Under the pieces are notes generated by a model. The model worked only from the letters and a program-made list of their open reading frames with translations. It made no database searches and was not told the origin of the DNA. Below are positions 21,901-29,438 of a stretch of DNA of 64,000 nucleotides, piece after piece. This stretch comes from Spongiibacter nanhainus (GTDB lineage: Bacteria > Pseudomonadota > Gammaproteobacteria > Pseudomonadales > Spongiibacteraceae), in the NCBI RefSeq assembly GCF_016132545.1, contig NZ_CP066167.1, positions 3,284,001-3,348,000 on the forward strand. Direction: 5' to 3'. Position 1 is the stretch's first letter; the number at the start of each line of letters is the position of its first letter. Both the position numbers and the translations under genes were made by a program.

Positions 21901-23280
21901 ATGAAACATCCGCTCCTAATCGCCGCCCCATTCGCGGTTCTTGTAATGAGTATGGCCCAGGCCAACACCGGTGGCGGCGATACTACCGTTAGCGCCGCGC
22001 ATCAACAGGCCTTCTCCCTACCCGCCGCCAACATGCCCATGGCCGAGCGCCTTAACTTCAGTGTTGGTAACAGTTTTTTCCGCAACCCCTGGGTAACAGC
22101 GCCGGCCAGCACCACCGCCAGGGACGGGCTGGGGCCGCTGTTTAACACCAACGGCTGCCAAAACTGCCATATTCGCGATGGTCGCGGGCATCCGCCGGAG
22201 TTTGATGGCGACAACGCCGTCTCTATGTTGGTTCGCCTTAGCGTCCCCGCCGAGTCTGAGGAGGACAAGGCAACACTCAAGCGCCTAGGGGTGATTCCCG
22301 AACCCCGCTACGGCGACCAATTACAGGATTTCGCGATCCCCGGTACCAAGCCAGAGGGCAAAGTGGCCATTCACTACGACACGCTGAACCGCCGCCTGGC
22401 AGACGGTACCGAGGTAGAGCTGCGTCAACCTACCGTGGAAATCACCGAGCTGAATTACGGCCCACTGGCAGATGATGTTCGCCTCTCCGCCCGTATTGCT
22501 CCGCCCATGATTGGGCTGGGACTCCTGGCAGCGATTCCTGAGCAGACTTTACGGTCTTATGCCGACCCCGAGGACAAAGACGCTGACGGCATCTCCGGGC
22601 GTCTCAATCGGGTATGGTCTGCAGAACTGCAAAAAACTGTGATAGGGCGCTTTGGTTGGAAGGCGGGACAGCCCAGCCTTCGTCAACAAAATGCCGCGGC
22701 GTTCCATGGCGATATGGGTCTCACCACATCCCTGTTTTCCGACATTCCCTGCGGGCCCACTCAAACCACATGCCGAGCAGCCCCCGACGGTGGTGAGCCA
22801 GAAGTCAGCGACAACATCTTGGACAAGGTGACTTTTTATACCGCTAACCTTGCCGTGCCTGCCCGCCGCAACGCGGACGACTCGAACGTTAAAGCCGGCC
22901 AGCGCCTGTTTCGACACGCCGGCTGCCAAAGCTGTCACATAGAAAAAGTATCTACCGGCTCATCGCCTCACCCCTGGTTGAGGGAGCAAGTTATTTCGCC
23001 CTACACAGATTTGCTGCTACACGATATGGGCGAAGGTCTGGCCGATCACCGCAGCGAATTTCTCGCCTCTGGTCGGGAATGGCGAACACCGCCACTTTGG
23101 GGAATAGGCTTAACCGATACCGTTTCCGGCAATGCCTACTACCTCCACGATGGCCGCGCTCGGACTTTGCTTGAGGCAATTCTATGGCACGGTGGTGAGG
23201 CGGAGCAAAGCCGGATAAAGGTGGAAGCCATGACTCAGAAAGAACGGGACACACTGGTGGCGTTTCTGAAATCGTTGTAA
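21901..23280 (+). CDS. di-heme oxidoreductase, DUF1111/DHOR family (putative peroxidase or thiol oxidoreductase)
   Basis: A periplasmic c-type cytochrome of 459 residues. A signal peptide (LLIAAPFAVLVMSMAQA) is followed by two heme-binding motifs, CQNCH at residues 86-90 and CQSCH at 342-346. The layout, with NGCQNCHIRDGRGHPPE early and a C-terminal YYLHDGRARTLLEAILWHGGEAE, is that of the DHOR family, related to the MauG/cytochrome c peroxidase group. Members often occur next to imelysin iron-uptake genes; none is present here. The gene has its own candidate promoter and is followed by a hairpin shared with the convergent TonB receptor gene. Confidence 0.88.
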   Translation: MKHPLLIAAPFAVLVMSMAQANTGGGDTTVSAAHQQAFSLPAANMPMAERLNFSVGNSFFRNPWVTAPASTTARDGLGPLFNTNGCQNCHIRDGRGHPPEFDGDNAVSMLVRLSVPAESEEDKATLKRLGVIPEPRYGDQLQDFAIPGTKPEGKVAIHYDTLNRRLADGTEVELRQPTVEITELNYGPLADDVRLSARIAPPMIGLGLLAAIPEQTLRSYADPEDKDADGISGRLNRVWSAELQKTVIGRFGWKAGQPSLRQQNAAAFHGDMGLTTSLFSDIPCGPTQTTCRAAPDGGEPEVSDNILDKVTFYTANLAVPARRNADDSNVKAGQRLFRHAGCQSCHIEKVSTGSSPHPWLREQVISPYTDLLLHDMGEGLADHRSEFLASGREWRTPPLWGIGLTDTVSGNAYYLHDGRARTLLEAILWHGGEAEQSRIKVEAMTQKERDTLVAFLKSL

Positions 23281-23355: not shown

Positions 23356-25980
23356 TTAATACTTCCAGCTCAGGCTCACACCAAAACTGGTACCGACCTC
23401 TTGCTCAAGAATGACGGTATTTCTACCAGCCGAGTTCTTCTGTTCGAATTCACGCTGAGAATCGAGCAGATTGCTCACTTTGACTTTCATCGACAACTGC
23501 TGTGTTGGATACCAGTTGTAGATCAAGTCCAGTGAGTGGAATGGCTGTTCAAAAGCGTCATCATTACCCTGGGTACCAGCAAAGAAAATGCGTTCACCGG
23601 ATACGTTATACAGCAGCGAAGCGCTGTGCTGCTCGTCTGGAGAGTCATATCCGAGAGAAGCATTCATCACGTACTCAGAGTGGCCTGTTAAGCGCCGATC
23701 GGAATTTGTCACTTCGTTATTGTTGGTAATGCTAATCTCAGAGTCACTCAGCGTTACATTACCCGACAAGAAGAATCCAGCTGGTAACGTTACCAAGCCT
23801 TCAAACTCCACACCCATGACCTCGCCACTGTCACCGTTGAGGTAGGTCAACACAGTATCGTCGTCAGAGCCGGCGCCTTCAACTTGTTCGATAGGTAAGT
23901 CCAAGTCTTTGTAGAACAACGAGACAGTGAAATTATCTCCGTCGTCGTAGTAAAACTCACCGCGAATTTCGAAGTTGCTAACTTGAGTGGTTTCTAAGGC
24001 AGGGTTACCAAACACACGAACGTTTAGCTCTGGGTCGATATAGGCAACGTCAGCCAATTCCCGCAAATCTGGACGCACCACCGTTTCACTGACACCGAAG
24101 CGAATCTGATACTCCTCGGTACCAAAAAGGCCGTTACCCAAGTACGTTGCTGCCGCACTGAAATAGGTATCGTCTTCTGTAATGGCAAAGGTCTGGTCCG
24201 GGTCGTTTAGTTGATCGCCAAGTTGTCCGATTGAAACGCCAGTGAAATCTAGCAGGTCTACCGGCAGTACCGCTTGCTGGTATTCTTCCCAACGCGCGCC
24301 GAGAGTAAAGCGCCAGCTCACACCCAGGCGATAATCCAGGCCACCGTAAGTGGCATTGACTTTCTGCGCAGCGACGTAGCTCTCATTACCAAAACCCGAC
24401 CCCATAGACAGGTCGAAGTCGTTGTTGAGGTCAGAGATGTTGGCATCGGTGAAGACCGTTTGTGGTATACCTACATAAGTCTGATTGGTACCAACATTTG
24501 CGGTATAGCCGTAATATTCACGCGTTTTTTCTGATGCCCACCAACCAGCGGTGAAGGTGAGTTCGTCGTTGCCAACAAATACCGGCAACTCAAATTTACC
24601 ACCATAGCTGTCCATCTCATCGATCAGCTCGAGAAACTCAAATTGACCAGCAGTGGCAGAGCTATCGATTGTTGCCGTTGCGGGATTAGTATTAAGGTCC
24701 AGTGAACCCTTAAAGCTTGACGCGTTTGGAATATCGGTTGTGGCCTCTGCGTCAGAGTAAAACCACTCAAAGTCCAGCATCTCCAAGGCTTTAATGGGCG
24801 CCCACTCGCCCAGACGGTGGTTACCCGTTAATTGATTCAACGTTAACTCACGTTCTTCCAACCGGGTTTCATAAGTCAGATTAGGTAAGCGCTCTTGAGG
24901 TGGGTTGTTGTTATCAAAGGCTTGAGTAATCCGCGCCTCTTCATACTCATTGGTAATGACGTAACTACTGAGCTCTACAGAGTGATCTGCTGTATATTCA
25001 GCACCGAGCAGGAATGCCAGGGTTGTGCGTTCGTCCCGCGCTGTACGCTCTATCTTGGCATTGTTGAGGTCTGGGTTACCGACTCCTCGCTCAATCTGAT
25101 CTTTGTTGCGGAATTTTTCGCTGTAGGCACCGCTGATAGATGCGCCAACAACCCAGTCTCTAGAGACATCCCAGGCATTGCCTAAATCGACTTTGACATC
25201 GGTATCGGGATCCAAAGAACCATCTGAGATACCAACTTTACGATTCAAAGACAGAATCAAGTCGCGCTGAATTTGTTCTGCTTGCTGATTTGAAAACGCC
25301 TGACCTGATGCTTTAGCCTCAGTATCGCGGATATTTGAGGTCGATAAATCACCGCGATACCGATTTATTGCTGATTTGATCTGCCCCGGTAAAGAGCTTG
25401 AGCCGCTTTCTGGGAAAGTCAGCCCATCCTCACTAGCGGTATTGATTCCAGTACCTATGGAGATATTAGCAACCGGACCGCTTGGCACGCTCTTAGTGCG
25501 AATATCTATCGCACCGCCGCCAAAGTTTGCCGGCAGATCTGGGCCCCATGATTTCTGAACCTTCAGCGATTCGACGATCGACGCAGGAAAAAGGTCGAGA
25601 GGAATAACGCTTCGTGCCAAATCCGGCGATGGCACGGCGGCGCCATTTACCGTCACGGAGGTATAACGCTCGCCCAATCCGCGAACGTAGATAAACTTGT
25701 TGTCAACAAGGGTCAGGCCGGTCACGCGGCGAAGAGCAGCACCAATGGTGCTGTCGCCGGCACGGGAAATCGCCTCAAAGCCGAGGAAGTCGGCAGAGTA
25801 TCCAAGCTCTAGCCGCTCGTCGGTCAGTGACGCTGCCACACTCTGCAGACGCCCGACGACAACCACTTCTTCCAGGGTGGGCGCCTTAATGCCTTCAGAC
25901 TCTTGAGCCAGAGACAGACCACTTGACCCCACACCGAGTCCGGCCAGGGCGATGGCCGCAACAATTGGTTTTTTACGCAT
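23356..25980 (-). CDS. TonB-dependent outer membrane receptor
   Basis: An 874-residue outer-membrane transporter: signal peptide KKPIVAAIALAGLGVGSSGLSLAQ, a possible TonB box region (LEEVVVVGR), the plug domain with IYVRGLGERYTSVTVNGA, VPSPDLARSVIPLDLFPASI and FGGGAIDIRTKS, then the 22-strand barrel ending in an aromatic residue (SLSWKY). The GLGERY plug variant belongs to a subgroup not tied to a classical siderophore. The frame also has an ATG at 25995, five codons earlier; I prefer 25980 because it starts the typical basic signal sequence. It follows the beta-helix lipoprotein gene after 125 bases containing a hairpin, so it may be expressed from the same Pho-type promoter at a lower level. 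GC content is visibly lower than in the flanking backbone genes. Confidence 0.92.
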   Translation of the reverse strand: MRKKPIVAAIALAGLGVGSSGLSLAQESEGIKAPTLEEVVVVGRLQSVAASLTDERLELGYSADFLGFEAISRAGDSTIGAALRRVTGLTLVDNKFIYVRGLGERYTSVTVNGAAVPSPDLARSVIPLDLFPASIVESLKVQKSWGPDLPANFGGGAIDIRTKSVPSGPVANISIGTGINTASEDGLTFPESGSSSLPGQIKSAINRYRGDLSTSNIRDTEAKASGQAFSNQQAEQIQRDLILSLNRKVGISDGSLDPDTDVKVDLGNAWDVSRDWVVGASISGAYSEKFRNKDQIERGVGNPDLNNAKIERTARDERTTLAFLLGAEYTADHSVELSSYVITNEYEEARITQAFDNNNPPQERLPNLTYETRLEERELTLNQLTGNHRLGEWAPIKALEMLDFEWFYSDAEATTDIPNASSFKGSLDLNTNPATATIDSSATAGQFEFLELIDEMDSYGGKFELPVFVGNDELTFTAGWWASEKTREYYGYTANVGTNQTYVGIPQTVFTDANISDLNNDFDLSMGSGFGNESYVAAQKVNATYGGLDYRLGVSWRFTLGARWEEYQQAVLPVDLLDFTGVSIGQLGDQLNDPDQTFAITEDDTYFSAAATYLGNGLFGTEEYQIRFGVSETVVRPDLRELADVAYIDPELNVRVFGNPALETTQVSNFEIRGEFYYDDGDNFTVSLFYKDLDLPIEQVEGAGSDDDTVLTYLNGDSGEVMGVEFEGLVTLPAGFFLSGNVTLSDSEISITNNNEVTNSDRRLTGHSEYVMNASLGYDSPDEQHSASLLYNVSGERIFFAGTQGNDDAFEQPFHSLDLIYNWYPTQQLSMKVKVSNLLDSQREFEQKNSAGRNTVILEQEVGTSFGVSLSWKY

Positions 25981-26040
25981 GATGATCACATCCAAAGTGT
26001 TCCGAAAAATGCCCTCGAAAAAATGAGAGCGCTAAACAAT

Positions 26041-26074
26041 AAAACGGGCGGGGTGTGGAGCTACGTCCCCGCCC
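26041..26074 (-). terminator. hairpin between lipoprotein and TonB receptor genes
   Basis: GGGCGGGG (26046-26053) pairs perfectly with CCCCGCCC (26067-26074), loop of 13 bases; on the minus strand it is followed by GTTTTATTG. The T run is short, so it may act as a partial terminator or a stabilising hairpin between a highly expressed lipoprotein and a less expressed receptor. Confidence 0.55.
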
Positions 26075-26105: not shown

Positions 26106-27776
26106 TTACGGGTTCAGCGGAGCACTCAGGCCTACAGTCCAGCCACTCAGCCAGTTGTCACCGGCATTGGCGCCACCAACGTAGCTGGGAGCTTCAAAGT
26201 AAGAATCGACTGCAGACACATCGGTTAGATCAGTAGCTTGGTTGAATACTTCAACACCGCTACCGTCTGTGATGGTCGAGGCAGTCAGGTATCCACGTGA
26301 TCCGGGAACACCTGTAATCAGGCTTTGAGCAGGCAAATCAGCGCCAGTGATGATGACATTTTTGGCATTAGTGCTGCCATTTGCCAGCCATTCCGCCGTC
26401 TTAAAATCTTGGTCGTTAGCAGCATCAACACCTTCTTTTGTAGCTTCAGAACAAGCGATTACGTTGCTGCTGGCGATACTAGTGCCATCAATCGCTGCTG
26501 CAATTGTTTGCGGCCCTTCGGAATCATCCAGTTCAAGACACTCGTTACTTTCCATACCAGGGGCATTGGAAGTGATCACCGAGTTGTACATTTCAAAGAA
26601 TGCGCCCTCGCGAAACAAAGGACCTTCTGAAGAGCCTTTGGAAGAGGGGTTTTGACCGGCACCTTCGCTGACAAATGAAGTCACACAAGTCAGGTTAGAG
26701 ATGATCAATTTAGTGGTGGGAGTAATGCCATCGTCACGGTTACCACCAGTGTTATCACCTTCAATACAACGGTTGGCGCCAGAGGTGTGAACAACAACAG
26801 CGTATTGGATCTTGCCGTTGTAACCTTCTGAGTAGTCGATGGAGTCGTCACCGACGTTAACAGCGACGATGTGGTCCAGGTTAACTGCGCCACCAAACAT
26901 CTCGAAGCCATCATCTTGGGAGGTGTAAGTTTGAACGTGACTGATAGTGGTGCCGCTACCAACCCCATTCAAAGTCAGCGCGTTCAGCTCGTTACCGTCG
27001 ACTACTTCGAAGCCAGCGTGCTTGATAACGACATACTCAAGAACACCTGAGTTCTCCGCATCGTTGTTACCACCGTAAGTAGCCGGACGACCTTCTGCAG
27101 TTTGGTTACAGTTGTGAACGTTGTTGTTGGTAGGATCGAAATCGCTCACATTGCCAGAGCCAGAACCTGTGTTGGTACCGTCGTGACACTTGTTGGTACG
27201 GCCATTACCGTTGATCTGAATCCCGCCCCACAGGCCGCGATCGCTTTCAGTCGCAGAGCCATCGATATCTTCATCGGCGGTGAAAATGATAGGCGATCCC
27301 GCCGTGCCTTCAGCAAAAATTTGCGAGCCGCGAGCGATGCGCACATAGCCTTCGGCGCGGGTGAAAACCATGGTAGAACCCGCTGCGATGGTCACAGATG
27401 GGCCTTCACCTTCTTGAGGAATTGGTGTGCCTGCAGCAGCCTCTTGGGCATCAACGTCATCACCGATAAACAGGGAGTCGGCAAAGATGTGGTTGCCGGC
27501 AATCGCGCCAAAGGTGATGTCTGTCAGGATAGGATTGGTAGAGCTAACAAAGCTGGCGGGATAAAAGCAGTCAGAGCCTTGCGCTTCGCCCTGGAAAGTT
27601 TGACCGTTCTCTTCGTAACTAGCGCAGGAGTTGGTAGCGCCGCCACCGCTGTTGTTCTGGCTGTTATCGACGCTGTTGTCGATAGTAGTCGGCTTGAGGT
27701 TGATATCACCACCGCCACCGCAGCCCACCAAGGCCATAGCTGACGCGAGGGCAGTTAAAGCAAAAAGCTTTTTCAT
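26106..27776 (-). CDS. secreted beta-helix-type lipoprotein paired with the TonB receptor
   Basis: A 556-residue lipoprotein: KKLFALTALASAMALVGC (Cys about 18), then CGGGGDINLKP and an Asn/Gly-rich linker. The mature part is rich in Gly, Asn, Asp and Ser and shows the repeated strand-turn pattern of a right-handed beta-helix (TISHVQTYTSQDDGFEMFGG; LDHIVAVNVGDDSIDYSEG; IQYAVVVHTSGANRCIEGDN). Similar proteins occur beside TonB receptors in marine bacteria and in Bacteroidetes; function unknown, perhaps capture of a ligand at the outer membrane. The start at 27776 follows GGAGA at 9 bases; the frame extends 7 codons further without better support. A Pho-box-like array lies 67 bases upstream. Confidence 0.8.
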   Translation of the reverse strand: MKKLFALTALASAMALVGCGGGGDINLKPTTIDNSVDNSQNNSGGGATNSCASYEENGQTFQGEAQGSDCFYPASFVSSTNPILTDITFGAIAGNHIFADSLFIGDDVDAQEAAAGTPIPQEGEGPSVTIAAGSTMVFTRAEGYVRIARGSQIFAEGTAGSPIIFTADEDIDGSATESDRGLWGGIQINGNGRTNKCHDGTNTGSGSGNVSDFDPTNNNVHNCNQTAEGRPATYGGNNDAENSGVLEYVVIKHAGFEVVDGNELNALTLNGVGSGTTISHVQTYTSQDDGFEMFGGAVNLDHIVAVNVGDDSIDYSEGYNGKIQYAVVVHTSGANRCIEGDNTGGNRDDGITPTTKLIISNLTCVTSFVSEGAGQNPSSKGSSEGPLFREGAFFEMYNSVITSNAPGMESNECLELDDSEGPQTIAAAIDGTSIASSNVIACSEATKEGVDAANDQDFKTAEWLANGSTNAKNVIITGADLPAQSLITGVPGSRGYLTASTITDGSGVEVFNQATDLTDVSAVDSYFEAPSYVGGANAGDNWLSGWTVGLSAPLNP

Positions 27777-27830
27777 AAGACTTATCTCCGGAACCATTTG
27801 CGTGGGTTTCTAGGATTGGTTTCGGGACGT

Positions 27831-27886
27831 ATGCTAGGTTCAGGCGGTGACAGCTATGTGAATGTAATATTTCAGTTATGTGACAA
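27831..27886 (-). promoter_or_regulatory. Pho box array and -10 element (PhoB-type promoter)
   Basis: On the minus strand, bases 27886-27843 divide into four consecutive 11-base units. The first begins TTGTCAC and the fourth CTGTCAC, matching the PhoB half-site consensus CTGTCAT/C at 6 and 7 of 7 positions; the second and third match at 5 of 7 each. Six bases after the fourth unit comes TAGCAT (27836-27831), a fair -10 hexamer. Four 11-bp units and a 6-base gap to the -10 is the layout I remember for the E. coli pstS promoter. The start codon of the lipoprotein gene is 55 bases further on. Binding is inferred from sequence only. Confidence 0.7.
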
Positions 27887-28020
27887 AGGACGGCCCAATG
27901 CCGGCCAATAAATAGAGTACTTTTATTTGACGGGCGCAACACCGGTCTTTACGGCGCCTTGGCGGGATTTGCCCTACACAAGACCAATAGGGAGATGACG
28001 AATATTTGAAGGGAAATGCC

Positions 28021-28042
28021 GGAGTGTAAATATTTACACTCC
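28021..28042. promoter_or_regulatory. perfect 22-bp palindrome, possible operator
   Basis: GGAGTGTAAAT followed at once by its exact reverse complement, centred between bases 28031 and 28032. There is no loop and no T run, so it is not a terminator. The core TGTAAATATTTACA looks like a dimeric regulator site. It lies 82 bases after the purA stop codon and about 135 bases upstream of the Pho box array. No regulator gene adjoins it. Confidence 0.45.
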
Positions 28043-28124
28043 GTATGCTAGCGGCACGGCTTAATCGAAACGGTACCTAATGAGCGGAGGCTTTACTAGA
28101 AAGGAGCTCTACTGGAAAGAGCCC

Positions 28125-29438
<1,314 letters not shown>

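Follow-up and report, generated by a model that had tools for sequence, protein, structure and literature searches.

Probable phosphate-starvation promoter and candidate capture-and-import role of a beta-helix lipoprotein and TonB receptor pair in Spongiibacter nanhainus

How do phosphorus compounds too large for porins pass the outer membrane in phosphate-poor water? To our knowledge this step is poorly known, and the question is raised by a stretch of 64,000 nucleotides of Spongiibacter nanhainus (NZ_CP066167.1, positions 3,284,001 to 3,348,000; hereafter the window), in which a lipoprotein gene preceded by a PhoB-type box is followed by a gene for a TonB-dependent receptor. A reading made from the DNA letters without database searches, here the sequence-only reading, had proposed that the two form a phosphate-starvation operon that may import a phosphorus-containing compound. 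We find that the lipoprotein gene is, to judge by its promoter sequence, very probably under PhoB control, and that the two genes very probably belong to the kind of pair represented by ElpS and CC0171 of Caulobacter crescentus. That they act as a phosphate-starvation capture-and-import pair of this kind is our favoured reading, with a probability of roughly 0.6. The features are as follows.

27843..27886, minus strand: Pho box of four contiguous 11-bp units (27886-27876, 27875-27865, 27864-27854 and 27853-27843)
27836-27831, minus strand: -10 hexamer TAGCAT, 6 bases past the fourth unit of the box
26106..27776, minus strand: lipoprotein of 556 aa, ATG at 27776, with lipobox LVGC (Cys19), one predicted pectin-lyase-like beta-helix domain and an acidic ladder
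26046..26074, minus strand: terminator-like intergenic hairpin of -17.1 kcal/mol, then GTTTTATT, between the lipoprotein and receptor genes
23356..25983, minus strand: TonB-dependent receptor of 875 aa, with Pfam plug and beta-barrel

The interval that the sequence-only reading had marked as holding both genes, 26106..27886, thus covers the box and the lipoprotein gene only, the receptor gene lying outside it at 23356-25983. Nor is the word operon demonstrated, since 122 bases and the hairpin separate the two genes.

The promoter of the lipoprotein gene

Read on the minus strand from 27886 to 27843, the box is TTGTCACATAA CTGAAATATTA CATTCACATAG CTGTCACCGCC, followed by TGAACC and then by TAGCAT. 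Its units match CTGTCA(T/C) at 6, 5, 5 and 7 of 7 positions, which reproduces to the base the arrangement described earlier, and their total of 23/28 makes this the top site on either strand of the 64-kb window, the runner-up reaching 20/28. A weight-matrix scan, suggested at that time as a check, also ranks the box best in the window, at 33.3 vs 9.1 for the next independent site; the matrix was built from Escherichia coli half-sites, of which those of pstS alone were confirmed against fetched sequence. Against dinucleotide shuffles of the upstream region the box gives p = 0.0025, the floor for 400 shuffles. The likeness to pstS of E. coli drawn in that reading also holds. The fetched MG1655 promoter has units at 7, 7, 5 and 7 of 7, then TTGTCC, then TATTTT, and so shares with the window its four 11-bp units and the placing of a hexamer 6 bases beyond them. 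A simple consensus scan placed no sigma-70 pair overlapping the box.

Conservation was followed in three sets of loci. A lipoprotein homologue at E <=0.001 is present in 55/145 relatives, many of these being paralogues or partial matches, and upstream regions were compared for the window and 27 relatives' loci. Further loci (the L-series) are the best 80 of 580 relatives from a scan of named genomes, a choice that favours close relatives; L101, whose upstream sequence is too short, was omitted from the upstream counts, leaving 79. A box of two or four units, significant at p <=0.01 vs dinucleotide shuffles, precedes the gene in 27/28 of the former and 58/79 of the latter, raw counts that the opposite-strand excess considered below renders somewhat overstated. 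Compared with other stretches of the same loci, which themselves contain Pho boxes, four-unit scores reach p <0.01 in 45/79. The third set comes from the wider phylum, where the lipoprotein has a match at E <=1e-20 in 57/397 sampled genomes (the window's own counted). There the box was scored in 29 of the 30 best-match loci, the window's own excluded, rather than in the loci of all 57 genomes; it was found in 20/29, and on the opposite strand in 9/29. At least three of these loci (L151, L162 and L167) look misplaced, the match having begun in the second domain, and were scored as misses.

The hexamer provides a separate check, because the weight matrix does not use it. TAnnnT lies exactly 6 bases past the box in 17/17 sequences of the genus (the window and 16 loci), in 6/11 other relatives and in 23/47 named-genome loci, the last being those of the 79 with four-unit p <=0.01; at eleven other offsets it occurs at most once per set, except at offset 11 in the genus (7/17). 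The sequences behind these counts are related and so do not represent independent events. One further genome of the genus (G003, 84% complete) has a weaker lipoprotein homologue only and stands outside the 17. Loss of the 11-bp phasing in orthologues had been named as an outcome that would speak against phosphate control; box and -10 spacing are both conserved, and phosphate-starvation control of the lipoprotein gene, as the sequence-only reading had it, is strongly supported by sequence.

The same genome holds the regulatory system that such a promoter would need. A phoB-phoR-pstS-pstC-pstA-pstB-phoU cluster has phoB at 1808298 (over the TIGR02154 cut-off) and pstS at 1810533; phoR, pstA, pstB and phoU exceed their family cut-offs, pstC falls just under its own, and the interval between pstS and pstC carries a three-unit Pho box with a score of 33.6. 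When this genome was scanned for three-unit boxes, 28 matches came out, some of which overlap, vs 12 for a reversed-pattern control; many of these matches may therefore be due to chance, and as evidence we use only the one between pstS and pstC. A paralogue of the lipoprotein is encoded at 3948724, and the 16 kb examined around it contain no receptor homologue and no box over the thresholds used. As a lead, we note elsewhere in this genome a metallophosphoesterase-like gene (L146:3336-4151, minus strand) that is closely preceded by a four-unit site with a score of 18.1; its matches to LpxH/YfcE-type families are weak and under cut-off, and we take it to resemble PlcP of phosphate-starvation lipid remodelling.

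Lipoprotein, hairpin and receptor

The lipoprotein begins MKKLFALTALASAMALVGCGGGG, with lipobox LVGC, and its model is a pectin-lyase-like right-handed beta-helix. Across the family this domain occurs in 1 to 3 copies, the three-module forms of about 1330-1410 aa (L080, L086, L095, L096, L097, L100, L101, which is cut by a contig end, and L108) carrying the acidic motif in every module. The motif is a ladder of acidic residues, D288 D289 E292, D310 D311 D314 and E339, identical in 45/45 aligned sequences, namely the window protein and 44 chosen single-module proteins from the 80 loci. The window lipoprotein has no Pfam or NCBIfam match at E 0.001, its sequence no match among PDB sequences at E <=1, and the model no Foldseek match at E 0.001, the best being E 2.8e-3 with a TM of about 0.2. 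VIA-align merely re-ranked the Foldseek candidates, and its ranking includes the surface proteins Vag8, pertactin and PfbA.

An Asp directly after the lipobox Cys (CD) accompanies nearby type II secretion genes in L035, L038, L046-L048, L055 and L087. There are exceptions in both directions, L049, L091, L092 and L106 having the genes without CD, and L033, L036, L037 and L057 having CD with no such genes found. CD may mark lipoproteins routed via type II secretion, a link confounded by relatedness.

Behind the lipoprotein stop codon, 49/73 stretches contain a hairpin followed by a T-rich tail, vs 19/73 mononucleotide shuffles. A narrower analysis took the window and 50 loci in which the gap, by first start codon, spans 20-260 bases, with a minimum length of 60 bases. 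Here 49/51 gaps (mean -22.3) reach -12 kcal/mol or better for a hairpin, vs 52/204 dinucleotide shuffles (mean -9.7); same-length coding ends reach this value in 26/50 (mean -12.0). The stem sequences differ between groups. Such a hairpin could be an attenuator or a 3' stabiliser of the mRNA, and its recurrence suggests that more lipoprotein than receptor is made. Unequal output is also a feature of other binding-protein operons, to which we liken the effect of the hairpin.

The receptor contains plug and barrel domains only, by Pfam. Taken singly, its sequence matches nothing in the PDB at E 0.01, and its alignment gave one weak match, 5fok, at E 3.3e-4. The receptor gene immediately follows the lipoprotein gene in 71/80 loci, being cut by a contig end in two of these (L036 and L037) and split into pieces in another (L076). 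It lies upstream in L102, L107 and L110 and kilobases off in L098 and L104, and it was not found in L081, L093, L099 and L111, all four of which are near a contig end. The split receptor, from Colwellia maritima (L076:12945-15378), occupies three open reading frames, owing either to genuine disruption of the gene or to faulty assembly.

The neighbourhood within 10 kb includes phoB or phoR in 12/80 loci, pst or phoU in 14/80 (weakly in L107) and either in 18/80, TonB-ExbBD-DUF3450 genes in 16/80 (weakly in L098, L104 and L110) and type II secretion genes in 15/80 (weakly in L103); at least one of these groups is present in 40/80. An Alteromonas-type order, phoB, phoR, pstS, lipoprotein, receptor, DUF3450, ExbB, ExbD, TonB and a tetratricopeptide repeat (TPR) protein, is seen in L079, L086 and L108. 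A site over the scan threshold lies upstream in 8/13 DUF3450 genes scoring >200 bits (L071, L074, L078, L079, L080, L090, L094 and L108), a count made without a separate control. No recurrent phosphatase or phytase was recognised by eye in the 40 largest neighbour clusters.

Known systems of the same kind

The sequence-only reading had held that capture by a beta-helix lipoprotein was a mechanism not yet described. This was too strong, for this kind of lipoprotein and receptor pair is already known from Caulobacter and Flavobacterium. ElpS (CC0170) of C. crescentus is a lipoprotein made on phosphate starvation and anchored at the cell surface (Le Blastier et al. 2010, PMC2996285); type II secretion later assists its release, and elpS adjoins the TonB receptor gene cc0171 and gspC-N. 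Refolded ElpS, and ElpS immunoprecipitated from the supernatant, had no alkaline phosphatase activity, and the same report noted the co-occurrence of lipoprotein and receptor and suggested that phosphate uptake might be involved (PMC2996285). The Caulobacter PhoB regulon includes TonB receptors and type II secretion genes, and CC0171 is not named in the available text (PMC11208175).

The window resembles this system, by sequence, in having a predicted beta-helix lipoprotein of a homologous family, then a TonB receptor, under putative phosphate-starvation control. The likeness is drawn through a Phenylobacterium locus (L089) as a stand-in, the ElpS sequence itself lying outside the comparison; L089 has the published Caulobacter order of lipoprotein, receptor, a GspC-like gene (under the family cut-off), GspD, GspE and GspF, and is identical to the window at 33% of 449 aligned positions in the lipoprotein and 27% of 926 in the receptor. 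The two differ in that the window has a clear four-unit PhoB promoter, whereas the box scores weakly in L089, and in that cc0171 is reported as constitutive. Type II secretion genes, adjacent in the Caulobacter locus, were not found in the window; most relatives lack them as well, and we treat them as a feature of the Caulobacter locus rather than as defining. By analogy with ElpS, the window lipoprotein probably faces outwards.

Flavobacterium johnsoniae has three lipoproteins, FI, FII and FIII, that are strongly induced by phosphate depletion (2020, PMC8115612). Two of these low-phosphate lipoproteins adjoin TonB transporters, in PUSIII and in the phoBR cluster, FIII being an orphan, and identity to the Caulobacter protein is reported as 31-36% (PMC8115612). 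They share with the window a lipoprotein beside a TonB transporter and, as published, induction by phosphate depletion, one pair adjoining phoBR; they belong to another phylum, and are likened to the window by description, not by sequence. SusCD/PusCD of Bacteroidetes, in which a surface lipoprotein and a TonB transporter capture a nutrient, is an analogy of working only, since the window lipoprotein is modelled as a beta-helix rather than as SusD, lacks a Pfam match and is encoded first, and the receptor has only plug and barrel in Pfam. A further comparison concerns the energiser. DUF3450 is TtpB, which is required for TonB2 transport in Vibrio, where iron limitation induces the system and a potential Fur site accompanies it (PMC6957404). 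The DUF3450, ExbB, ExbD, TonB and TPR genes beside the pair, mostly in Alteromonadales, resemble this TonB2 system (TtpB, TtpC, TtpD), which is iron-linked in Vibrio, whereas here the DUF3450 genes are often preceded by the Pho-box-like sites counted above; no such energiser was found in the window.

In the open-access literature searched, we recognised no report of import by such a pair. The lipoprotein family emerges as a common one, which both promoter and neighbours link to the Pho system and whose published founder was left without an assigned function. To that account we add receptor adjacency, the Pho, secretion and energiser neighbours, the recurrent hairpin, and beta-helix copies with an invariant acidic ladder, and with these what had been seen as a phosphatase helper can be recast as a transport hypothesis that lends itself to testing, for which specific residues, a partner and a candidate energiser can be named.

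Capture and import against other readings

On the capture-and-import reading, exhaustion of phosphate would bring PhoB onto the four half-sites, where it would replace the -35 element, and the lipoprotein would be made in quantity. The hairpin past the stop codon would either limit how much message extends into the receptor gene or protect the upstream message, so that lipoprotein would exceed receptor. Anchored by its N-terminal cysteine and probably facing outwards, the lipoprotein would bind a phosphorus-containing ligand along its acidic ladder, perhaps with calcium or magnesium, and hand it to the receptor, whose TonB-driven import would deliver it to the periplasm for further handling by phosphatases and PstS. 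We favour this because of the conserved box and -10 spacing, the Pho cluster of the same genome, the receptor in 71/80 loci, the neighbours, the hairpin and the acidic ladder, together with the identity of DUF3450 as TtpB and the published surface location of ElpS, its synthesis on phosphate starvation and its lack of phosphatase activity. A broader proposal, taken as a whole, is doubtful: PhoB-controlled lipoproteins of one to three beta-helix modules would use a cation-binding ladder to take up a phosphorus polymer or calcium-bridged phosphate and deliver it to a dedicated TonB receptor, served in Alteromonadales by a private phosphate-controlled TonB2/Ttp energiser, and the recurrent intergenic hairpin would set lipoprotein above receptor, the whole being a widespread, self-contained outer-membrane phosphorus importer apart from porins and SusCD.

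Several points weigh against capture and import. CGGG, which follows the lipobox, is among the inner-membrane retention signals of Pseudomonas aeruginosa (PMC2996285), and on that reading surface exposure is not secure here. Without a bridging cation, phosphate would not be expected to pair with an acidic face. The same Caulobacter study gave the constitutive expression of cc0171 (as data not shown), found intracellular phosphate unchanged, and reported that deletion of elpS left phosphatase activity unchanged while overproduction of ElpS raised it (PMC2996285), effects that fit a role other than import. The opposite-strand control was itself enriched, with a box at p <=0.01 in 8/28 and 21/79 upstream regions, an excess to which genuine boxes belonging to divergent genes may contribute (as in L050), and 16/107 upstream regions miss p 0.05 by both box measures. 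Pho, type II secretion or TonB-system neighbours are lacking in 40/80 loci, some of them cut by contig ends, and such genes were not found in the window (phmmer, E 1e-4). Capture and import are moreover a prediction from sequence.

One alternative, unlikely in our view though the strongest of the rivals, is that the lipoprotein is a surface enzyme or activator, the ladder cutting a polymer (glycan, nucleic acid or other) in the manner of a polygalacturonase, or a phosphatase being activated, with the receptor importing the product. The ladder contains conserved Asp pairs that may correspond to the catalytic aspartates of GH28 polygalacturonases; there is no GH28 match in Pfam. The weak Foldseek match, the missing family assignment and the inactivity of both ElpS preparations as alkaline phosphatase argue against an enzyme, and the structural matches indicate that beta-helices serve also as binders and adhesins. 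Those matches, Vag8, pertactin and PfbA, lend some weight to a signalling or surface device that imports nothing, with a receptor for sensing phosphorus compounds or a lipoprotein serving as adhesin or coat; two- and three-copy lipoproteins would suit adhesins. We consider this improbable, given that energiser genes adjoin in 16/80 loci and point to transport, that deletion of cc0171 did not abolish ElpS production (data not shown; PMC2996285), and that no sigma/anti-sigma genes were recognised in the 40 largest neighbour clusters, where no dedicated search for them was made. Finally, the box could be a chance or decayed site before a pair that serves another nutrient, as two of its half-sites match at only 5/7 and opposite strands exceed chance in some loci. 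That the exact -10 spacing is kept in the window and in 16/16 loci of the genus, that phoBR or pst genes are neighbours in 18/80 loci, and that ElpS is repressed by phosphate as published, make this a very remote explanation.

Two further observations concern the flanks of the pair. A di-haem oxidoreductase gene (PF06537; window 21901-23280) adjoins the receptor gene and is transcribed towards it, and no site before it is among the top sites of the window. On the other side, between an adenylosuccinate synthetase-like gene (28125-29417) and the Pho box, lies a perfect 24-bp palindrome, CGGAGTGTAAATATTTACACTCCG (28020-28043), the sole perfect palindrome of at least 20 bases in the window. None of 19 other upstream regions checked (16 from the same genus and 3 from the same family) contains it, and among them only L008 has a palindrome, a different one of 30 bp.
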